NCBI GenBank assembly: GCA_947630465.1
Contig: CANRHT010000030.1
Span: 1 to 14,449, forward strand
From: an uncultured Pseudomonadaceae bacterium
GTDB lineage: Bacteria > Pseudomonadota > Gammaproteobacteria > Pseudomonadales > Pseudomonadaceae
Length of the DNA: 14,449 bases
Reading direction: 5' to 3'
Position numbers and translations under genes: made by a program. The number at the start of each line of letters is the position of its first letter. Within the stretch, counting starts at the first letter, position 1. The notes beneath the pieces are model-generated. The model did no database searches and was not told where the DNA came from. It worked only from the letters and a program-made list of their open reading frames with translations. Positions 2,384 to 11,868 of the stretch are shown one piece after another.

Positions 2384-4096
2384 TTAACCCTGTTGCATGA
2401 CGTAACGGCCGGGTGCAGCTTCGATCGCTGGGTATTCTGCGCTACCCATCTCAGTGACTGCAGGGACTTTCTTGCCGCTGTGCTTCTCTAACCAGTCAAA
2501 CCAGTCATTCCACCAGCTGCCAGGCTTCTGCTCAGCTGCTTTTAGCCATGCTTCAGGCGACTTAACAATTTTGTCATTGACCCAGTAGTTACGCTTTTTC
2601 TTTGCAGGTGGGTTAATAACACCGGCAATATGGCCAGAGCTGCCCAGCACAAAACGTGTTGGACCTTTCAGTAAAGTGGTACTGGCGTACGCACTGTGCC
2701 AAGGTACGATGTGGTCGTCTTGAGTGGCCAGTAAGTAAGTGGGTGTTTTGATTGTCGCGAAGTCTAACTTCACGCCGCACATGTCCAGCTCGCCTGATTT
2801 CAAATCGTTTTGCAGGTAAGTGTGACGCAAGTACCAGCAGTACATATTGCCAGGGAAGTTGGTGCTGTCGTTGTTCCAGAATAACAAGTCGAAAGCACGT
2901 GGCTTTTCGCCTTTTAAGTACTTATCAACGTTGTAGTTCCACCACAACTCATTTGGACGCAGCATTGAGAATGAGTTGCCCATGTCTTCGCCACGGAATA
3001 AACCGAACTTGCTACCGTCTTTACCACCGATGGTGCGCTCACGGTAAGCCACAAGTTTTTCATCTACGAAAACGTCGATTGGACCGGTTTCTACGTAGTC
3101 AAGGAAGGTGGCAAATAAGCTCAATGATGCGATGTCAGTGTCACCGCGTGCAGCCAATACAGCTAAGGCGCAGCTCAACAAAGTACCACCAATACAGAAG
3201 CCCATGCAGTTCAGTTGACGCTCACCGCTGATAGCACGTGTGGTGCGTATAGCATTGATGATGCCGTCTTGAACAACTTGTTCCCAGCTGACGTGGGCCT
3301 GTTCTTGACCAAAGTTGCGCCAAGAGATCAGGAAGACCTGCTGACCTTGCTCAAGAAGGTGGCGTACTAAAGAGTTCTCTTGTTGTAAATCGAGAATATA
3401 GTACTTATTGATAATGGGTGGCACGATAAACATTGGCTTTTGGAATTGAGTTTCAGTCAGCGGCTTGTACTGAATCAGCTGAAAGAGTTCGTTTTCAAAT
3501 ACCACGGTGCCTGGCGTTGTTGCTAAAGTTTTGCCAACTTCAAACTCGCCTGCATCACATTGACGCATTTTGCCTTCTTTCATGTCGCTTGCTAAGTGCA
3601 AGAAACCACTGGCAAGGCTAGTGCCTTTGGTTTCCACCGCGCGCTCAATGGCGTCAGGGTTGCTCATGAGGAAGTTGCTTGGTGCGCTAGCAGCAATCAT
3701 TTGCTCGATTAAATAATCCAAGCGTTGCTTAGATTTTTCATCATTAATTGGCAGTAAATCCAATAATTTCAATAGAAACTTTGAGTTAAGCAGGTAAAAC
3801 GCTGCTAAAGAACCAAATAATGGATTGTTCCAGTTTTCGCTCGAAAAGCGACGATCGCTGAAAGTAAAATCTTGCTGGCTGAGTGTTTGTTGGCCTAGAG
3901 CCATCCAGTCGTTGTTGAACTCTGCTTGCAGTTGTTCAAGGTCAGTGCTGGGCACATCAAACCAGGTGCTATGGTCACAGTCTTTAAACCAATCATGCTG
4001 TGTAATACCCATACGCAACTGTTGTAGGCATAAGTTAGCAATAAAAGGGGTTTGACCTGACCAATAGGTGTTTAAAAAGTTTTGATTGATATCCAT
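2384..4096 (-). CDS. phaC: Class I poly(3-hydroxyalkanoate) synthase PhaC
   Basis: Polymerises (R)-3-hydroxyacyl-CoA, mainly 3-hydroxybutyryl-CoA, into PHA at the granule surface, releasing CoA. The 570-aa length fits class I synthases (Cupriavidus necator PhaC is 589 aa). After an N-terminal domain (about 1-200) comes an alpha/beta-hydrolase catalytic domain with the lipase-like box GFCIGG. Its Cys301 is the expected nucleophile, Asp461 (in TQDDHIVP) the acid and His489 (in SSGHIAG) the base. The spacing of these three matches C319/D480/H508 of C. necator. No PhaE or small class IV subunit gene is adjacent. The ATG at 4096 has an AGGA about 12 bases upstream, a somewhat long spacing. phaB lies 301 bp upstream on the same strand, and a strong terminator follows. 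Confidence 0.97.
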   Translation of the reverse strand: MDINQNFLNTYWSGQTPFIANLCLQQLRMGITQHDWFKDCDHSTWFDVPSTDLEQLQAEFNNDWMALGQQTLSQQDFTFSDRRFSSENWNNPLFGSLAAFYLLNSKFLLKLLDLLPINDEKSKQRLDYLIEQMIAASAPSNFLMSNPDAIERAVETKGTSLASGFLHLASDMKEGKMRQCDAGEFEVGKTLATTPGTVVFENELFQLIQYKPLTETQFQKPMFIVPPIINKYYILDLQQENSLVRHLLEQGQQVFLISWRNFGQEQAHVSWEQVVQDGIINAIRTTRAISGERQLNCMGFCIGGTLLSCALAVLAARGDTDIASLSLFATFLDYVETGPIDVFVDEKLVAYRERTIGGKDGSKFGLFRGEDMGNSFSMLRPNELWWNYNVDKYLKGEKPRAFDLLFWNNDSTNFPGNMYCWYLRHTYLQNDLKSGELDMCGVKLDFATIKTPTYLLATQDDHIVPWHSAYASTTLLKGPTRFVLGSSGHIAGVINPPAKKKRNYWVNDKIVKSPEAWLKAAEQKPGSWWNDWFDWLEKHSGKKVPAVTEMGSAEYPAIEAAPGRYVMQQG

Positions 4097-4218
4097 AGAT
4101 ATGCAAGATCCTCGCGTGTTAAAAGCCTACGCATGTCGGCGTGGTGCTGTGGTTAGATAAACTGCTTGGATAGCAGAATGATCTGTATTGGGTTTGAATG
4201 CGACCAAGGTACCATATA

Positions 4219-4238
4219 ATCAGCAACTAAGTGCTGAT
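4219..4238. promoter_or_regulatory. Inverted repeat upstream of phaC, possible operator
   Basis: Perfect 7-bp arms, ATCAGCA and TGCTGAT, are separated by 6 bases, about 125-140 bp upstream of the phaC start. On the minus strand it is followed by ATTATATGG, which could be a -10 region. The core differs from the TGC-N3-GCA sites near phaR and the phasin gene, so a different regulator or chance is possible. Confidence 0.3.
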
Positions 4239-4300
4239 CTAAGTCGTATTCTATTTAAATATGACGAATGCCGAACTCTCTTGCAGAGCTACGGTTATAT

Positions 4301-4336
4301 CTTATGCACAGCCCTAAACGTTGGGCCGTGCATAAG
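4301..4336 (-). terminator. Stem-loop after phaB
   Basis: Arms CTTATGCACAGCCC (4301-4314) and GGGCCGTGCATAAG (4323-4336) pair over 14 bp with one mismatch around an 8-base loop. On the minus strand the stem starts about 60 bp after the phaB stop. Only a weak, mixed A/T stretch follows, so it may terminate partially or serve as an mRNA processing or stability hairpin between phaB and phaC. Confidence 0.6.
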
Positions 4337-4397
4337 TGTGTCGCAGGTGTTGCAGTGATCAGTAATGTCCGCACTACAGCGCGGAGCCTTTACTGTC

Positions 4398-5144
4398 TTA
4401 CTGCATATTCATACCGCCGTTGACCGTGAAGTCAGCACCTGTTGAATACGCTGCATCATCTGAAGCCAACCAAGCAACCATTGAAGCGATTTCTGTTGGT
4501 AAACCGAGACGACCCACTGGGATACCTGAAATCATACCTTCCAAGATATCTGGACGGATTGCATCAGTCATATCAGTTTTAATGTAGCCCGGTGAGATTG
4601 TATTAACAGTCACACCTTTGGCGCTGACTTCACGAGCCAAAGCCATAGTGAAACCGTGAACACCTGCTTTAGCGGCAGAGTAGTTGACTTGGCCAAACTG
4701 GCCGCGCTGACCGTTGATTGAGGAAATGTTAATAATACGACCCCAGCCATTACCCAACATGCCATCAACCACTTGCTTGCTGGTGTTAAACAGGCTGTTT
4801 AGGTTGGTGCTGATCACCGCATTCCAGTTTTCTGGAGTCATTTTGCGGAAAGTACCATCACGTGTAATACCAGCGTTATTGATTAACACATCAACTGCGC
4901 CGACTTCAGCGTGGAGCTTTTCAAATGCTTGTACGGTTGAGTCCCAGTCAGCAACGTCACACTCCAGTGCTTGGAAGTTGTAGCCTTCTGCTGCTTGCTG
5001 AGCAAGCCAATCATTTTTGCGTGCCGATGCAGGGCTGCAGCCGACTACAACGGTAAAACCATCATCATGTAAACGACGGCTGATAGCTGTCCCTAAACCA
5101 CCCATGCCGCCTGTAACCAGTGCAATACGTTTTTTATTAGTCAT
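4398..5144 (-). CDS. phaB: Acetoacetyl-CoA reductase PhaB (short-chain dehydrogenase)
   Basis: Reduces acetoacetyl-CoA to (R)-3-hydroxybutyryl-CoA, normally with NADPH, supplying the monomer for PhaC. The 248-aa length is typical. It has the nucleotide-binding TGGMGGLG motif (residues 11-18), NNAG (89-92), and the catalytic Ser142, Tyr155 and Lys159 in the order and spacing of C. necator PhaB (S138/Y151/K155). The segments ISSINGQRGQFGQVNYSAAK and SPGYIKTDM are characteristic of PhaB. The related FabG reductases share the fold, but this detail and the position next to phaC favour PhaB. GGAG lies 8 bases before the ATG. It is first in the minus-strand phaB-phaC pair and divergent from phaR. 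No phaA thiolase gene is nearby. Confidence 0.95.
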   Translation of the reverse strand: MTNKKRIALVTGGMGGLGTAISRRLHDDGFTVVVGCSPASARKNDWLAQQAAEGYNFQALECDVADWDSTVQAFEKLHAEVGAVDVLINNAGITRDGTFRKMTPENWNAVISTNLNSLFNTSKQVVDGMLGNGWGRIINISSINGQRGQFGQVNYSAAKAGVHGFTMALAREVSAKGVTVNTISPGYIKTDMTDAIRPDILEGMISGIPVGRLGLPTEIASMVAWLASDDAAYSTGADFTVNGGMNMQ

Positions 5145-5382
5145 TACTCGATCTCCATTATATTTACTGCTTAAGAATTACCTACCTATTTAAAAATTAC
5201 TAGGGAGTGCTGAATCAAGCAAAACCGTTATGACAAGTGTGACAAAGCAATTGCGTTGGTGTTATGTATCAATCAACGGATGATTGTTGCGTTGCTTCGA
5301 TCCTGGCAATCACGGAGTTAATCAGTGCTCCATTAGATTTTTAAATGGCGGCAATATATTTGTGTCAATGTTTATATGCAAA

Positions 5383-5411
5383 TTGACAGTAATAAGCAAT
5401 TAGATTAATAG
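5383..5411 (+). promoter_or_regulatory. Putative sigma-70 promoter of phaR
   Basis: A perfect -35 hexamer TTGACA (5383-5388) is followed after 17 bases by TAATAG (5406-5411), a poor match to TATAAT. The start would fall near 5418, directly beside the palindrome at 5422-5442 and about 90 bp before the phaR ATG. Confidence 0.4.
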
Positions 5412-5421
5412 CTAATAGGCG

Positions 5422-5442
5422 CCTGTTTGCAGGGCAGACAGG
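5422..5442. promoter_or_regulatory. Candidate PhaR operator in the phaR promoter (TGC-N3-GCA core)
   Basis: Nine-base arms CCTGTTTGC (5422-5430) and GCAGACAGG (5434-5442) are inverted with one mismatch around AGG. The core TGC-N3-GCA also occurs twice upstream of the phasin gene. TGC-containing palindromes are reported PhaR targets in other PHB producers. Its position at the predicted transcription start fits autorepression. The assignment to PhaR is inference. Confidence 0.55.
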
Positions 5443-5507
5443 ACGAAAGACAGGTGAGTAGGGTAAGATACTAGACTTATGTATGCTATTTGCGAGATTT
5501 CCTACCC

Positions 5508-6038
5508 ATGCAAGACAATAATCACAGCCAGCCACGCTTAATCAGAAAGTACACCAATCGTCGCATGTATGACACGCATACCAGCACCCATGTGAATGTG
5601 AACGATATCCGTGAGTTTGTGATTGATGAGATTCCCTTTCAAGTCGTGGATGCCAAGAGCGGTGAGGATCTAACGCGCAGCATTCTTTTACAGATCATCC
5701 AAGAAGCAGAAAATGACGGCGAGCCGATTTTTTCCAGCGATATGCTCAAAGGTATTATTCGTTTTTACGGACCACTGCAAGGCATGCTGGGCAGCTATTT
5801 AGAACAAAGTATTCAAACTGTGGTTGACTTGCAAACCAAGGCCAGTGTCCAGTCATCGCAAGCTTGGAGCGAGTTTATGCACAAGCAGTCGCCAGTGACA
5901 GGGGACTTGATGAATGATTATATGGAGCAGTCAAAGAAGCTGTATCAAAGCACGCAGAGTTTGTTTGGTTTGTTTGGTGCGGCGCCGGCCAGTAAATCAG
6001 AGGCAGCGAATGCTGAAAAGGATACTGATACAAAGTGA
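5508..6038 (+). CDS. phaR: PHB-responsive transcriptional repressor PhaR
   Basis: A DNA-binding regulator that also binds PHB. In characterised systems it represses the phasin gene and its own gene, and leaves DNA when granules form. Near the N-terminus it has the signature RLIRKYTNRRMYDT (residues 10-23) of the PHB accumulation regulator DNA-binding domain. A PHB_acc-type helical segment follows (about residues 78-103, containing LKGIIRFYGPLQGMLG), then a polar tail. From the ATG at 5508 it is 176 aa. A TTG at 5490 in frame would add six residues that are unlikely to be conserved. Neither start has a good ribosome site; the ATG is preferred because the signature follows at the usual distance. 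This PhaR is the regulator, not the class IV synthase subunit of the same name. The gene is divergent from phaB and converges on the phasin gene. Confidence 0.93.
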   Translation: MQDNNHSQPRLIRKYTNRRMYDTHTSTHVNVNDIREFVIDEIPFQVVDAKSGEDLTRSILLQIIQEAENDGEPIFSSDMLKGIIRFYGPLQGMLGSYLEQSIQTVVDLQTKASVQSSQAWSEFMHKQSPVTGDLMNDYMEQSKKLYQSTQSLFGLFGAAPASKSEAANAEKDTDTK

Positions 6039-6137
6039 TGCTGTATTGAGTGTATCGCGTACTCAGGGTTGGCTCAGGTGTAGATTGAGCGCTGAATGAT
6101 TGTTTGCTGAATGATTGTTTATAGTTGCAGTACACAT

Positions 6138-6177
6138 AAAAACGCTGGAGACCCTATTGAGGTGCTCCAGCGTTTTT
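6138..6177. terminator. Bidirectional terminator between phaR and the phasin gene
   Basis: Perfect 13-bp arms, AAAAACGCTGGAG (6138-6150) and CTCCAGCGTTTTT (6165-6177), lie around a 14-base loop. T runs follow on the plus strand and, as the complement of the A run, on the minus strand. It can stop phaR transcription (plus) and phasin transcription (minus). Confidence 0.92.
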
Positions 6178-6180
6178 TAT

Positions 6181-6206
6181 TGAGCTAGACATGACTGTCT
6201 AGCTCA
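6181..6206. terminator. Second stem-loop in the phasin 3' region
   Basis: Perfect 11-bp arms, TGAGCTAGACA (6181-6191) and TGTCTAGCTCA (6196-6206), have a 4-base loop, directly after the phasin stop on the minus strand. It has no T run of its own in either direction. It may stabilise the phasin mRNA 3' end or act in tandem with the terminator 3 bp away. Confidence 0.55.
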
Positions 6207-6213
6207 GACGATC

Positions 6214-6822
6214 TTACTTACCAGCAGGCTTGTTAGTCTTAGCTGAAGTAGATGCAGTCGCTGCAGATGTTGCTGCAGTTGTAGCGTTACGTGTTGCTTC
6301 TGTAGCGGCGCTTGCTGCTGCAGTGATACCTTCTTCAGCCATTTGTGTGGCTTGCTTAGCTGCTTTCTGTACGCTTTCGTAAGTGCTGCCAGCTGTTTCT
6401 AAAGCTGATTTCATCATTGCAACTGCTGGCTCAGCGCCTGCTGGTGCATTCTTGCTCAGGGTTTCGATCATTTCCTGAGTTTGCTTAGAAGTAGCTGTCG
6501 CTTGGCTTTCTGCCAGCTTAGCGATTTCTGCTTGAGTGCTAGATACTAAATCGTAAACTTCACGATTGAATTCCATCATGCGCTCTGCTTGTGCTGCAGG
6601 CTGAGTCAAAGAAGACTGCAGTTTTGCGAAATCTTGTGGGTTAGATGCTGAGAACATAGTGCGCAGGCTTTCCATTTGGTCAGCACTTGTTGCACGTAAG
6701 TTTTTGAACTGTAACTGAGACAGTTGCTCAACGCTTTCAAAGATTTTGCCGCTGATCTGCTGTAACAGCTCAAGTTGAGCTTGTTGAGTTTCTTGGATTT
6801 TTTCAGAATTAAATAAAGACAT
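6214..6822 (-). CDS. phaP: Phasin family protein (PHA granule coat)
   Basis: A small amphipathic protein that coats PHA granules and limits their coalescence. The 202-aa product has no signal peptide. It has a long helical region (about residues 5-120, rich in Gln, Glu, Leu and Met), including the phasin-like stretch FNREVYDLVSSTQAEIAKLAE (two adjoining pieces around residues 84-104). An Ala/Thr/Ser-rich low-complexity tail (about 160-198) ends in Lys-Pro-Ala-Gly-Lys. Such tails help phasins oligomerise or contact other factors. AGGAG lies about 10 bases before the ATG. The upstream region has two TGC-N3-GCA palindromes, which suggests PhaR control. The exact paralogue name is less certain than the family. 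Confidence 0.92.
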   Translation of the reverse strand: MSLFNSEKIQETQQAQLELLQQISGKIFESVEQLSQLQFKNLRATSADQMESLRTMFSASNPQDFAKLQSSLTQPAAQAERMMEFNREVYDLVSSTQAEIAKLAESQATATSKQTQEMIETLSKNAPAGAEPAVAMMKSALETAGSTYESVQKAAKQATQMAEEGITAAASAATEATRNATTAATSAATASTSAKTNKPAGK

Positions 6823-6901
6823 CTTAATGTATCTCCTAACGAATGGTTAAGCCTAAAGCGGCTTGAAACGAAATGGGTTAATCTCAAATCTGCGATTATG
6901 A

Positions 6902-6910
6902 TGCACTGCA
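6902..6910. promoter_or_regulatory. Candidate PhaR site 1 upstream of the phasin gene
   Basis: TGCACTGCA, a TGC-N3-GCA palindrome, lies directly beside the putative -10 element and about 80 bp before the phasin start. It shares its core with the site in the phaR promoter. Confidence 0.5.
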
Positions 6911-6932
6911 AAAAACAATTATGCAACTATTA

Positions 6933-6949
6933 TTTTGCGCTGCACAAAA
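6933..6949. promoter_or_regulatory. Candidate PhaR site 2 upstream of the phasin gene
   Basis: TTTTGCGCTGCACAAAA is a near-palindrome with the core TGC-GCT-GCA (6936-6944). Its centre is 34 bp from that of site 1, about three helical turns, which would put two bound repressors on the same face of the DNA. Confidence 0.5.
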
Positions 6950-7083
6950 TTTTTTTGTTTTGTCTGCAGCCCAGTACAGCTAAGCCTTAAGCTCACCTTG
7001 ATGAGATGGCTGTGGCTAAAAAGAGTTCAAGTCGGTTGGACGCAAACTGATAAAGGGTAGGGGGTCTTGCGCAGAAAAAGTGC

Positions 7084-7117
7084 TTTAGTTGCCATAAGCA
7101 GGGTTATGGCAACTAAA
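7084..7117 (-). terminator. Terminator of the bdhA-patatin unit
   Basis: Perfect 14-bp arms, TTTAGTTGCCATAA (7084-7097) and TTATGGCAACTAAA (7104-7117), lie around a 6-base loop. On the minus strand a TTTTT run follows four bases after the stem. It begins about 15 bp after the stop of the patatin-like gene. Confidence 0.75.
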
Positions 7118-7132
7118 ATTGCGGATGAGTTA

Positions 7133-8152
7133 TTAAGACCAGTGGATTTCGCGCTCAAGATCGAGCGACGACTTGTTACCAATGCTGTCAAAGTGCTCGT
7201 CGAGGAAGTTTTTTGCCGATTCACGTCCAATATCACGCAAGTGAGTTAAAAACGCCCATTCCGAGTTCATTTTACTTGACGATGATAGTGGATTGATCTT
7301 TTCCGTGGCTTCGATGCGGTGCACCAAAATATTCGCGTAGTGATCGGTATCCAGCTTGTTCTCTTCAAGCAGGCGATGCACAAACTCAATACTGCGTAAC
7401 TCTCTTAGCAAAGATGAGTTAAAGGAGATTTCATTGATACGGTTCTGGATCTCGCGTGCTGTTTTCGGGACTTTATTGCGCTCAATGGGGTTAACCTGAA
7501 CGATAATAATGTCTTTAGATTCTGTCGCTTGGAACAACGGGAATAAAGGTGGGTTACCACTGAAGCCACCATCCCAATAGGGAATGCCATCCACTTCTAC
7601 AGCTTGGTAAATCGTAGGCAAGCAGGCAGAAGCCAAAATCATGTCGGCCGTGAGTTCGTCGCGTTCAAACACCTTGATCTTGCCTGACTGTACGTTAGTG
7701 GCAGCAATAAACAGCTCAATATCAGTACAGTTCCTGACTTTTTCAAAATCAACGGTGCTTTCAATCAGTTCGCGCAGTGGATTAAATTTGAACGGATTGG
7801 TGTCGTAAGGTGAGGCGACGCGGCTGAGCAAGTCCATCATTAAGTACGCAGGCGAGCCACTCATATCCCAGTTGCCCATTAAGACACTGAGCGGGCTGCG
7901 TTTAAGCGGGCTGAACATGGCTAAATCGGACACTTTGCGCCAAAACTGCTCAAGTGATTCACGCGCACCTTCTGCACCGCCGTCCATATAGCCTTGGGTG
8001 AACACAACGGCGTTCATAGCACCGGCACTGGTGCCTGAAATACCTTGGACATCGAGGCGACCATCTTCGAGTAAGTAGTCCAGTACGCCCCAAGTAAATG
8101 CGCCATGGGAGCCGCCGCCTTGCAAGGCGAGGTTGATTGATTTTTTACTCAT
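7133..8152 (-). CDS. Patatin-like phospholipase family protein
   Basis: A predicted serine hydrolase with a Ser-Asp dyad. From the ATG at 8152 (339 aa) it has the oxyanion loop GGGSHGAF (residues 12-19), the nucleophile elbow GTSAG with Ser42, and DGG with Asp194, all in the family order. It has no signal peptide or membrane span, so it should act in the cytoplasm on lipid or another ester. An upstream in-frame GTG (8176) would place the GGAG ribosome site (about 10 bases before the ATG) inside the gene, so the ATG is chosen. It lies downstream of bdhA with a shared terminator. In this setting it could release 3-hydroxybutyrate from PHB or act on granule-associated lipid. Both are inference; the family is certain, the substrate is not. 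Confidence 0.92.
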   Translation of the reverse strand: MSKKSINLALQGGGSHGAFTWGVLDYLLEDGRLDVQGISGTSAGAMNAVVFTQGYMDGGAEGARESLEQFWRKVSDLAMFSPLKRSPLSVLMGNWDMSGSPAYLMMDLLSRVASPYDTNPFKFNPLRELIESTVDFEKVRNCTDIELFIAATNVQSGKIKVFERDELTADMILASACLPTIYQAVEVDGIPYWDGGFSGNPPLFPLFQATESKDIIIVQVNPIERNKVPKTAREIQNRINEISFNSSLLRELRSIEFVHRLLEENKLDTDHYANILVHRIEATEKINPLSSSSKMNSEWAFLTHLRDIGRESAKNFLDEHFDSIGNKSSLDLEREIHWS

Positions 8153-8168
8153 CAGAACGTTACTCCGT

Positions 8169-8192
8169 ATGCTCACTGTAATGAGTGAGCAT
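8169..8192 (-). promoter_or_regulatory. Hairpin just before the patatin ribosome site
   Basis: Perfect 9-bp arms, ATGCTCACT (8169-8177) and AGTGAGCAT (8184-8192), enclose a 6-base loop in the bdhA/patatin spacer. In the minus-strand transcript it ends directly before ACGGAG, the patatin ribosome site, so it could affect translation or RNA stability. Read on the plus strand it is followed by a T run, but no plus-strand gene ends here. Confidence 0.45.
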
Positions 8193-8231
8193 CTTTGTTT
8201 TTTAATTATAAAGGGTCTAAGTCAGCGCGCT

Positions 8232-9014
8232 TTATTGTGCAGTCCAGCCGCCATCAACCGGTAGTGTGATGCCGGTAATGGATGCCGCAGGATTACCGCA
8301 GAGGAACACAGCGACAGCTGCAACTTCTTCAACGGTGACGAATTTTTTTGTGGGCTGGGCTTTAAGCAGCACATCTTGCATCACTTGCTCTTCAGTAATG
8401 CCACGCGCTTTGGCGGTGTCGGCAACTTGTTGCTCGACCAGCGGTGTCCATACATAGCCCGGCGCAATGGCGTTGACTGTAGTGCCGAATTCAGCCAGTT
8501 CAAGTGCGGCTGTTTTAGTCAGGCCGGCAATGGCGTGCTTAGCTGCAACATAAGCTGATTTGTACGGTGAGGCTACCAAGGCATGCGCTGATGCGGTGTT
8601 GATAATGCGACCCCAGCCGCGTTGTTTCATGCCGGGAGTCACCGCTTTAATAGTGTGGAAAGCGGAGGTCAGGTTGATGGCAATGATGGCGTCCCATTTA
8701 TCATTGGGGAAATCTTCAATCGGAGAAACAAATTGGATGCCAGCATTGTTAACCAAAATATCCACAGAGCCTAAGGTTTGCTCGGCTTCAGTGATCATCG
8801 CGACAATTTGCTCAGGCTTGAGCATGTTGGCCGGTGAGAACAGCGCTTTAACAGCGAAGTCGGTTTCGATGGCTTGGCGCGTGGCTTCATTGTCTTCTGC
8901 GCTGCCTAAACCATTAATCATCACATTGACGCCCTGAGCGGCGAGCCCGCGGGCAATGGCCAAGCCGATTCCTGATGTTGAGCCTGTTACAACTGCGTTT
9001 TTACCTTTAAGCAT
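8232..9014 (-). CDS. bdhA: D-3-hydroxybutyrate dehydrogenase (short-chain dehydrogenase)
   Basis: Interconverts (R)-3-hydroxybutyrate and acetoacetate with NAD(H), the entry step for using 3-hydroxybutyrate released from PHB. At 260 aa it has TGSTSGIG (residues 10-17), NNAG (89-92), Asn114, and catalytic Ser142, Tyr155 and Lys159. The stretches LVASPYKSAYVAAKHA and PGYVWTPLVEQQV are typical of bacterial 3-hydroxybutyrate dehydrogenases and separate it from PhaB/FabG. AGGA lies 8 bases before the ATG. The patatin-like gene follows 79 bp downstream on the same strand and shares a terminator, so the two are probably co-transcribed. Confidence 0.95.
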   Translation of the reverse strand: MLKGKNAVVTGSTSGIGLAIARGLAAQGVNVMINGLGSAEDNEATRQAIETDFAVKALFSPANMLKPEQIVAMITEAEQTLGSVDILVNNAGIQFVSPIEDFPNDKWDAIIAINLTSAFHTIKAVTPGMKQRGWGRIINTASAHALVASPYKSAYVAAKHAIAGLTKTAALELAEFGTTVNAIAPGYVWTPLVEQQVADTAKARGITEEQVMQDVLLKAQPTKKFVTVEEVAAVAVFLCGNPAASITGITLPVDGGWTAQ

Positions 9015-9330: not shown

Positions 9331-9346
9331 GTGACTGATCAGTCAC
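9331..9346. promoter_or_regulatory. Perfect 16-bp palindrome GTGACTGATCAGTCAC
   Basis: A perfect palindrome with no spacer, about 200 bp upstream of the GTPase/Roadblock operon and 315 bp upstream of bdhA. The form suits a dimeric regulator's operator. No T run follows it, so it is not a terminator. The cognate protein is unknown. Confidence 0.4.
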
Positions 9347-9546
9347 TTGACTGGGTTGAGGTATTGCTTTTGTAAATCCCGCGTTTTTACAAAGTCTTTC
9401 TCGTGGTTTAATGAGTTGATTTTCATCGGTCAACTGGTAGAGTTACTCTGCTTTGAGCATAGGCTTGCATTTTAATCTAAGCTTTAAGATTATTTATTGA
9501 TAATAAAGATTTATACATTCAATGCAATTGTAGGTTGGCCTTTTTT

Positions 9547-10467
9547 ATGCGATTTAATATAGCGCTGTTAGGGTTTGCAGAATACGAAGAAGGACTTTTC
9601 ATACAGCAACTAAAAACTGTTCGAAAACATACAGGCATTATGTGGTGTCATCAGGCTGATATCAGTCAGTGTGATTATGTGATTGAGCATGATCTGGACA
9701 GTAAGCAGGCCGTTATTTATAAAAAAGATCATCAGTCTTTTAAGACACATTTAGAATGGCCCGTACGTTTGTTTGGTTTGCTTGATGCGTTGAAAATATA
9801 TGAAGAGCATGACGTTGTGCAGAGTGTATCCTGTAAAGAAAACGTTAGTTTCATGCAGTTTTTAAAGCATATTACACAGACGACGGTTGGTTGTTATTTT
9901 AATGAGCATGGTTTTAAATTTTTGTTTGATGCTGATACAGCTGTCGTGTATTCCAATGCGGGTTGCTTTAATCAGTTGGTCAGTCACTTATTATCAGCGG
10001 ATACGATCAGTCAATTGTATTTTTACACCCACGATAGTGATGCTGTTGAAATAAAACAGCAATGCTCTTTAGTGGTTTCCAAGAAAAAATTAATATGGGC
10101 ATTACTAACCGCTTATAAAAAGGTCATACACACTGATTTAGAGCTGCCCAATTGTCAGTTCAAACTCAAAACGTGGCCAATTGCAGCGGACTATTCGAGT
10201 ACACCTGGGATGCTGCGTTTAGCCGCTATTTTTACGCGCCAATATACAACTGTGAAGCAAGCCGCTGAGTTTGCTAAGGTGCTTGAAATCGATGTGATTG
10301 CATTTTTACAAGCCTGCCAAACAACGGGTATTCAACTTGAGACTGAGCGTGTGAGCGCAATAAATAAGGGTGCTCAGGTGAGTGCAGTCAGTGAGGTCTT
10401 GGAATATAAAGTCAGCGGGTTTGTTGCTCGACTGAGAACCAAGCTCGGTATCGCTTTTAGTCGGTAA
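9547..10467 (+). CDS. Unrecognised 306-aa protein, first gene of the GTPase/Roadblock operon
   Basis: I do not recognise a named family. The N-terminal about 95 residues (RFNIALLGFAEYEEGLF... up to WPVRLFGLLDALKIYEE) look like a compact alpha/beta domain. A middle region contains several Cys and Phe residues. The last about 90 residues (from MLRLAAIFTRQYTTVKQAA through VIAFLQACQTTGI) read like a winged-helix or helix-turn-helix fold with short helices. The ATG at 9547 is preferred over an in-frame TTG at 9535; an AGG lies about 12 bases upstream. The stop is 8 bp before the GTPase start, so co-transcription and a joint role are likely. It could be the effector, adaptor or sensor of the module. 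The gene is AT-richer than the PHA genes. Confidence 0.75.
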   Translation: MRFNIALLGFAEYEEGLFIQQLKTVRKHTGIMWCHQADISQCDYVIEHDLDSKQAVIYKKDHQSFKTHLEWPVRLFGLLDALKIYEEHDVVQSVSCKENVSFMQFLKHITQTTVGCYFNEHGFKFLFDADTAVVYSNAGCFNQLVSHLLSADTISQLYFYTHDSDAVEIKQQCSLVVSKKKLIWALLTAYKKVIHTDLELPNCQFKLKTWPIAADYSSTPGMLRLAAIFTRQYTTVKQAAEFAKVLEIDVIAFLQACQTTGIQLETERVSAINKGAQVSAVSEVLEYKVSGFVARLRTKLGIAFSR

Positions 10468-10475
10468 GTTAATGT

Positions 10476-11018
10476 ATGAAAATTTTATTTGTTGGTCCGA
10501 TGGGCGCTGGTAAGACTACAGCGATTAGCGCCATCAGTGATATCGAACCGGTTTCAACAGAAGCACTCAATAGTGATAAACAGCAGAGTAATAAAGCAAC
10601 CACTACCGTCGCGCTGGATTATGGTGAGATCGTGGTAGATGGCGGCGACACGCTGATGTTGTACGGCATTCCAGGGCAAGAACGTTTCTCTTTTATGTGG
10701 CCGATACTGGGGCAGGGCGCCTTGGGCGCCATTTTATTAATGAATACAGATCTGCTCAGTAGCGAGCAGGATCTTATAAATTACTTAGATGCGTTTGCTG
10801 ATTTAGTCGCTCAAGGCACTGTGGTGATTGGTGTGTGGAGTGCAGATGCTGCCGCAGACAATATTGTAGATCGCTATCAGGTTTTATTAGAAAAAAGAAA
10901 CTTAGCGTTACCTATCATGCATGTTGATGTGCGAGATAAGCAGCATGTGTTAATGCTGATTGAAATGCTTATTGTCAATATTGAAGTTAATCAATTATCC
11001 GCAGGTTGCCAGCTATGA
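10476..11018 (+). CDS. MglA/CvnD-like small GTPase (COG2229 type)
   Basis: A Ras-like P-loop GTPase, expected to switch between GTP and GDP forms and to be controlled by Roadblock partners. The 180-aa chain has Walker A GPMGAGKT (residues 7-14), then SDIEPVSTEA and ATTTVALDYG (41-50, switch I), both typical of COG2229 proteins. The G3 motif reads YGIPGQERF (63-71), with Gly where Ras has Asp, a substitution I recall as usual in this branch (FGTPGQ). At the G4 position the sequence is VWSAD (120-124) rather than NKxD, so guanine specificity may be weakened. The gene overlaps the next by 4 bp (ATGA), a sign of translational coupling. No membrane anchor is seen. Confidence 0.88.
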   Translation: MKILFVGPMGAGKTTAISAISDIEPVSTEALNSDKQQSNKATTTVALDYGEIVVDGGDTLMLYGIPGQERFSFMWPILGQGALGAILLMNTDLLSSEQDLINYLDAFADLVAQGTVVIGVWSADAAADNIVDRYQVLLEKRNLALPIMHVDVRDKQHVLMLIEMLIVNIEVNQLSAGCQL

Positions 11019-11410
11019 TTACAGAAGTTTCAGGGTTACGGATGATGTTTCAAGAGTATTTAGAAACGTTTCATCAGCAAACAGATTGTGTGCAATTTGT
11101 TATTTTAGCCTCTGAAGATGGATTTCCAGTTGCCTATACAGGTATAGAGCCTGATAAAAGTAAAAGAGCTTCGGCAATGGCGTCGACGCTCTATGGTTTG
11201 GCCGGCACTATTGTCAAAGAGTTTGATTTGCAGGCATTGGATGGTGCAATTCTTGAGTGTGAATTGGGTTTGGTATTATGTCGCAGCGTACAATTAAAGA
11301 GTAAAAACTTTGTTGTGTTAGCTGTTGTTGATCATACCGTTGTGATCGGGCATGCTCTATGGAGCATTAAAAACCTAGCGAAAAAAATGAGTGATGCAAT
11401 TCGTATTTAA
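11015..11410 (+). CDS. Roadblock/LC7 domain protein 1
   Basis: A 131-aa single-domain Roadblock/LC7 protein of the kind that binds MglA-like GTPases, as a GAP-like or scaffold dimer. The segment FVILASEDGFPVAYTG (about residues 29-44) matches the strand-turn-strand start of the fold. A helix (KRASAMASTLYGLAG) and two further strands follow, in the order seen in CvnB/MglB proteins. The ATG at 11015 overlaps the GTPase stop and is preferred over an in-frame TTG at 11006. It differs clearly from the second Roadblock gene, so they are not a recent duplicate. Confidence 0.88.
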   Translation: MITEVSGLRMMFQEYLETFHQQTDCVQFVILASEDGFPVAYTGIEPDKSKRASAMASTLYGLAGTIVKEFDLQALDGAILECELGLVLCRSVQLKSKNFVVLAVVDHTVVIGHALWSIKNLAKKMSDAIRI

Positions 11411-11434
11411 ATAAATAAATGAGAAGGGTGGTAT

Positions 11435-11794
11435 ATGAATATCAATGCGGCACTGAATGAGTTATTAGAAGTCGAAGGTGCAACAGCCGCCGCTGTTGTT
11501 GATTATAAAACAGGTATGATGCTAGGTTCAGCGGGCACTGGTATTGATCTTGAAATTGCTGCAGCCGGTAACACGGAAGTGGTGCGTGCAAAATTAAAGA
11601 CCATGCAGATGTTGGGCTTGGATGAGAAGATTGAAGATATCCTTATTACATTAAATACTCAGTATCATATGATTCGCCCTTTAGAGCGCGAAGAAGATCT
11701 GTTTATTTATTATGTATTAGACAGTGCTAAGTCAAACCTTGCTTTGGCACGTCGTAAGCTCAAAAAAGTTGAAAGCGAGCTGCAAGTTGACTGA
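11435..11794 (+). CDS. Roadblock/LC7 domain protein 2
   Basis: A 119-aa protein, again one Roadblock/LC7 domain. It starts with a helix (NINAALNELLEVEGA), then AAAVVDYKTGMMLGSAG as the first hairpin, a central helix (residues 41-61) and strands ending at YYVLDSAKSNLALARRKL. A charged C-terminal helix completes it. A strong ribosome site (AAGGGTGG) lies 4 bases before the ATG, better than for the three upstream genes, so this protein may be made in excess. It is 24 bp from the previous stop and is followed by a strong terminator. With protein 1 it could form hetero- or homodimers on the GTPase. Confidence 0.85.
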   Translation: MNINAALNELLEVEGATAAAVVDYKTGMMLGSAGTGIDLEIAAAGNTEVVRAKLKTMQMLGLDEKIEDILITLNTQYHMIRPLEREEDLFIYYVLDSAKSNLALARRKLKKVESELQVD

Positions 11795-11829
11795 GTTTGA
11801 TACATAGGCCTCAGTGCATGTATTAAACA

Positions 11830-11868
11830 AAAAAGCCCTAACAGAGGTATCCACTGTTAGGGCTTTTT
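11830..11868. terminator. Bidirectional terminator after the Roadblock operon
   Basis: Perfect 15-bp arms, AAAAAGCCCTAACAG (11830-11844) and CTGTTAGGGCTTTTT (11854-11868), lie around a 9-base loop, with T runs in both directions. It serves the plus-strand Roadblock operon and the minus-strand DUF2805 operon that converges here. Confidence 0.93.

Follow-up and report, generated by a model that had tools for sequence, protein, structure and literature searches.

A Group 3 MglA-type GTPase module with two Roadblock proteins and a degenerate receiver-like partner in an uncultured Pseudomonadaceae bacterium

The DNA analysed here (the window, 14,449 nucleotides) is the whole 14.4-kb contig CANRHT010000030.1 of GCA_947630465.1, a 2.2-Mb draft genome of an uncultured Pseudomonadaceae bacterium that is 76% complete. 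It carries a four-gene module coding for a partner protein, an MglA-type small GTPase and two Roadblock proteins, R1 and R2. We conclude that this module is a branch of a known signalling family, that of the Group 3 MglA systems, and not a new kind of system. Its GTPase falls outside the main branch of the group, and comparison of the sequences makes it fairly probable that the state or location of the GTPase is determined by an input protein that works otherwise than through phosphorylation, the Roadblock proteins being regulators.

The operon and its products

The module consists of the following features:
9547..10467, + strand: partner (input) protein, 306 amino acids, no Pfam family over the cut-off
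10476..11018, + strand: MglA-type small GTPase, 180 amino acids, from motifs and Pfam
11015..11410, + strand: Roadblock protein R1 (MglB-like), from Pfam; 4-bp overlap with the GTPase gene
11435..11794, + strand: Roadblock protein R2, 119 amino acids, a widespread and highly conserved type, from structure
11830..11868, no strand assigned: hairpin with A and T runs on either side, a strong terminator

A preliminary description of this DNA had proposed a four-gene operon with an 8-bp gap, a 4-bp overlap, a 24-bp gap and a terminator, and all of these are borne out by the open reading frames (ORFs) and the hairpin. The terminator, which is absent from the output of one scan of the window, may serve both strands. 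The four genes are the only ORFs of at least 80 amino acids between the flanking minus-strand genes, and neither a histidine kinase nor DUF742 was found in Pfam scans of their products and of nine other window ORFs; the proposal of a coherent GTPase, two-Roadblock and partner module without a kinase gene therefore stands.

The GTPase had been assigned to the MglA type, and its P-loop, motifs and Pfam match agree on this. It has a GPMGAGKT P-loop, a YGIPGQ motif, no NKxD, and DVR as residues 151-153. The P-loop residues, T43-T44, PGQ and D-x-R (D151, R153) are invariant in 14 aligned GTPases. R1 is a Robl_LC7 protein by Pfam, and R2, which scores under the Pfam cut-off, was found by structure comparison to have the Roadblock/MglB fold. 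R2 has 6512 relatives at E <= 0.001, and among the matches listed (the best 120) the six nearest non-self relatives are 75-85% identical to it. R2 is also found apart from the other module genes. Two adjoining R2-type Roadblock genes without the rest of the module are carried by a Comamonas plasmid (L030:5216-6354), where a response regulator and an ATP-binding protein adjoin the pair on the opposite strand.

In the structure model and alignment, the partner comprises a degenerate receiver-like region (residues ~1-93), a middle region (~100-178), a winged-helix domain designated WP (~179-270), a linker and a basic tail (~290-306); the winged-helix C-terminus that had seemed apparent from the sequence is thus seen in the model. 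A W-P dipeptide is invariant across 47 aligned partners and is present in 95 of the 97 partner ORFs, the exceptions being those of loci L042 and L096. The mean net charge of the C-terminal tail is +4.0 for partners (n=97), compared with -2.1 for the GTPase, +1.0 for R1 and +1.7 for R2. Foldseek returned no match to the whole partner model at E <= 0.001, and in a Pfam scan of 48 partners no family was common to two at E <= 0.05. A profile of 13 partners gave weak matches to solved structures, the best being BLUF proteins (E 0.11); the window partner itself was rejected as a BLUF protein, since Pfam gave no match to BLUF for it at E <= 1. A protein search needing shared exact words yielded two partner relatives beyond the partner's own cluster, and profile searches showed the partner to be widespread.

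Relation to known systems and conservation of the gene set

As described in the excerpted text of Wuichet & Sogaard-Andersen 2014 (PMC4316618), to which all statements on Group 3 below are limited, these systems comprise one MglA, one or two MglB, and a partner of unknown function in which a receiver-like N-terminus and a winged-helix-like C-terminus are joined by a variable linker. Their GTPases have a G4 motif without the usual Lys and a G5 motif with D-x-R, their range is almost exclusively beta- and gamma-proteobacteria, and the MglBs of two-MglB systems form clades separate from single-MglB ones. The window module has these features: the GTPase is without NKxD and has D151 and R153, the partner corresponds in its model, in alignment to canonical partners and in its winged helix, and there are two MglB proteins, R1 by Pfam and R2 by structure. 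The gene set is thus the Group 3 system of that text, and the label 'undescribed' in the preliminary description goes too far. Among the papers listed in searches of the open-licence literature, PMC4316618 was the one study to deal with the Group 3 partner, and no functional study of it was seen. Judged from the sequences, two points are new with respect to that paper: the window is placed off the main branch, on the side where partners never keep both the receiver Asp and Lys (0 of 42, versus 47 of 55 on the main branch), and input domains are swapped (BLUF or DUF2510 at the N-terminus in related loci) with the winged-helix domain and the basic tail held constant. The present loci also differ from the published account in that 6 of 80 are from Actinomycetota and in the conserved basic partner tail noted here.

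The partner had been said to replace a histidine kinase and DUF742. Neither is present, but the arrangement is not peculiar to the window: GTPases of this group usually have the partner next to them. Actinobacterial conservons (Group 2; CvnA-D) similarly combine a similar GTPase, a Roadblock protein and an input protein in one operon, whereas the window has no histidine kinase gene, no DUF742 match, two Roadblock genes and a different partner. Membership was rejected because genes for a histidine kinase and for CvnC, whose domain we take to be DUF742, are not in the operon. The mglAB systems of Myxococcus and Thermus (Group 1) share with the module a small GTPase and a Roadblock protein, R2 having the MglB fold, but the window differs in its G4/G5 motifs, and its two Roadblock genes and conserved, dedicated partner rule out a plain mglAB pair.

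Conservation of the neighbourhood was followed in 80 loci, the best of at least 229 candidate stretches confirmed in a GTPase-alignment scan of genome contigs. A partner homologue lies within ~2.5 kb of 81 of the 82 GTPases in these loci, directly upstream in 78; the single GTPase without one (L069) sits at a contig edge. R1 is nearby for 73 GTPases and R2 or an R2-like gene for 23. The strict order partner-GTPase-R1-R2 occurs in 21 loci, four of which (L070, L089, L103, L107) have a divergent R2-like gene in last place. The gene set is found in beta- and gamma-proteobacteria and in some Actinomycetota, so that the co-occurrence of partner and GTPase/Roadblock triplet, which had been set as a test of the proposal, is not confined to one genome. 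With a partner profile, strong matches (E < 1e-10) were obtained in 11 of 90 related genomes, ten of which have the GTPase; the match in the remaining one (G078) covers the N-terminal part only. Weak, short and mostly N-terminal matches in 16 more genomes bring the number to 27 of 90 at E <= 0.001. Three genomes (G014, G030, G071) have the GTPase and no strong partner match, and the partner of G071 is of the BLUF type described below.

Several variants of the gene set were also observed. Genome G020 has a second partner-profile match on contig 11. An Acinetobacter plasmid (L032:2-1924) carries R1, a partner-like gene and R2; its gene table, which is incomplete, lists no GTPase past the start of the record, where there are two insertion sequence (IS) transposase genes. 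In five canonical-branch loci (L045, L055, L075, L080 and L098, at ~5525-6190) an extra protein of 209-219 amino acids is encoded between GTPase and MglB; that of L055, which was scanned, has no Pfam family. In two Neisseriaceae loci (L075:2378-3811, L098:2405-3838) a 478-amino-acid protein is encoded upstream of the partner; it begins with a hydrophobic stretch and matches TPR weakly.

Receiver residues and exchanged input domains

In a GTPase tree of 101 rows, built without reference members of MglA Groups 1, 2, 4 and 5, a canonical group of 58 rows was parted from the remaining rows with a support of 90/90, which is below the tool's star. The window GTPase lies outside this branch, as sister to the L014/G024 GTPase (58% identity, support 97/80), whose genome has the same four-gene order; the GTPase of a Neisseriaceae metagenome-assembled genome stands next to this pair (97/90). 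Rows outside the canonical branch are called compact here, with Actinomycetota counted apart. Both the receiver Asp and Lys are kept in 47 of 55 canonical partners, in 0 of 34 compact partners and in 0 of 8 from Actinomycetota, whose rows scarcely align to the receiver part. In this count, L029 (BLUF type, long branch) and L032 (not represented in the tree by a GTPase) were assigned to the compact class by exclusion, and L016 and L114 were both entered as canonical, though their GTPases are identical and their partners look alike.

The window partner does not pass as a functional phospho-receiver, for which an acceptor Asp ending strand 3 and the Lys of a KP motif were looked for: His and Trp occupy the aligned positions. 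The label 'receiver-like' rests on alignment with canonical partners carrying D-x-D and K-P; the best structural matches listed for residues 1-93 are anticodon-binding domains of tRNA synthetases. Among loci with R2, none of 12 partners has both receiver residues, versus 23 of 28 without R2 (Fisher p 1.1e-6, a value that ignores relatedness). Not counted in that comparison are two rows from the protein search whose locus is unknown, together with five loci whose R2-like gene is divergent; in two of these five, both residues are retained. No claim is made that R2 caused the loss; degenerate partners also occur in L083, L036 and L066, three loci that have no R2 and fall outside the canonical branch.

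Different N-terminal domains were found in related partners. Pfam detects BLUF in two partners, from L031 (8e-23) and L029 (8e-11), and in all eight further proteins scanned of the type termed BLUF-WP. A BLUF-WP profile built from four seed proteins was run against 390 genomes of the order, evenly drawn from a larger group, and matched 97 of them at E <= 1e-15, mostly via the BLUF part alone. Near-full-length matches, reaching at least position 227 of 246, number 18 in 17 of the 390 genomes and five families; one match, in G071, is itself a seed of the profile. A complete set of BLUF-WP, GTPase, R1 and R2 genes lies within 1.5 kb in 15 of the 17 loci fetched, one per genome (L139-L155), while L151 and L153 show the BLUF-WP gene alone. 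On the Agarilytica plasmid pSU2 (L031:5998-8069) the order is R2-BLUF-GTPase-R1. The C-terminal part of BLUF-WP matches residues 201-302 of the window partner with a probability of 91% (E 1.1e-6), and we conclude from this profile comparison that the two are homologous. Tyr6, Asn34 and Gln52 (Agarilytica numbering), which we take to be the photoactive residues of a BLUF domain, are kept in 8 of 20 BLUF-WP proteins; Cys replaces Tyr in the other 12. In the tree, a long branch carries the paired GTPases of the two BLUF loci included, which leaves uncertain how exactly they are related to the window. Searches of the open-licence literature yielded, among the papers listed, nothing on BLUF combined with Roadblock or MglA.

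Both Actinomycetota partners scanned (L044, L058) contain DUF2510 by Pfam. In these loci (L044:4117-6868, L058:4027-6832) two partner copies flank GTPase and R1; the scan concerned the first copy of each, and the second has a similar sequence near its start.

Since the window's branch has lost the receiver Asp and Lys, and BLUF or DUF2510 takes their domain's place in related modules, its input is probably not phosphorylation. In the scheme that we favour, the GTPase would be the switch, at least one Roadblock protein would act on it as a GTPase-activating protein or scaffold, by analogy with MglB, and the N-terminal domain of the partner would receive the input. The winged-helix domain and basic tail may pass this input to the GTPase/Roadblock core, or may instead fix the core at the membrane, a pole or a similar site. 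More tentatively, and as a possibility only, the compact side could consist of sensor-swapped GTPase switches that dropped two-component input, a conserved GTPase/two-Roadblock/winged-helix core being wired to varied sensors. Those BLUF members that keep Tyr, Asn and Gln would then be natural blue-light-controlled Ras-like GTPases, and the window module a cousin whose degenerate receiver-like domain senses a different cue, possibly a protein or small molecule.

Alternative readings, genomic context and meaning

Several observations weigh against non-phosphorylation input to a GTPase switch. The receiver contrast reflects mainly the one deep split in the tree and thus few events, not 97 independent ones, and the residue columns of the divergent rows come from automatic alignment. 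The partner tail is barely more amphipathic than its own shuffles (mean z 0.7, n=97; z > 1 in 38%), and that of the window is weak; a clear amphipathic membrane helix was rejected, and membrane binding by the tail is therefore a guess. The winged helix could bind DNA. The GTPase was found in none of the 11 other genomes of the same genus searched, which makes the module dispensable.

A role in polarity or in type IV pilus-driven motility as in Myxococcus, with the GTPase marking a pole and the partner as localiser or effector, seems somewhat unlikely, though it is compatible with the input scheme and not opposed to it. MglA and MglB of known systems have such roles, and in the excerpted text of PMC11112851 three Snodgrassella mglB genes are reported to benefit colonisation of the bee gut; the link to pili is made there in discussion only. 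The Snodgrassella GTPase (L075) falls in the canonical branch, and none of the window ORFs was recognised as a motility gene, nine neighbours having been scanned with Pfam.

That the partner is a transcription factor, its winged helix binding DNA under control of the GTPase/Roadblock core, we regard as unlikely. A transcription role was suggested for Group 3 systems (Wuichet & Sogaard-Andersen 2014, PMC4316618), the partner model has the winged-helix fold, and one of 48 partners has a Pfam HTH_24 match (6.6e-5). Charge was dropped as an argument against DNA binding because it fails to separate the E. coli controls.

That the module is a selfish passenger without a host role, either in decay or newly acquired, is very improbable given the four intact frames, the overlapping start and stop, the strong terminator and the conservation of R2 among its nearest relatives. 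This is so despite the patchy occurrence of the GTPase (present in 14 of the 95 genomes that were searched, including that of the window), a GC content of 41% in the module as against 46.5% in the pha region, and an R2 relic in a relative. This relic (68 amino acids; L131:6547-6753) lies near IS-like ORFs, judged by eye, in genome G001 of the same genus, as a trace of a lost module.

The remainder of the window includes a polyhydroxyalkanoate (PHA) locus at 2384-9014, with PhaC, an SDR and a patatin-like protein identified by Pfam and phaB-, phaR- and phasin-like genes named by look. Its gene order is kept in same-genus genomes. Since PhaC is 78-82% identical in three of these and the pha order is shared, the contig belongs to the genus, and mis-binning was rejected. 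Two of the three share the order from pha to SDR, and in them the module does not adjoin the SDR gene; the third stretch ends before that site. It looks as if the module was gained by the window lineage or lost by its kin.

Input routes of bacterial Ras-like GTPases are known for few systems. If the reading proposed here is true, a constant core with a changing sensor, including a photoreceptor that can be switched with a lamp, would make the step from input to GTPase directly testable. Eukaryotic Rag GTPases with Ragulator and GATOR1/SEACIT likewise combine a small GTPase, Roadblock proteins and winged-helix-bearing regulators, Npr2/Npr3 having three winged helices according to the excerpted text of PMC3521125. 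The module would thus offer a bacterial comparison for the control of eukaryotic GTPases by Roadblock and winged-helix proteins.
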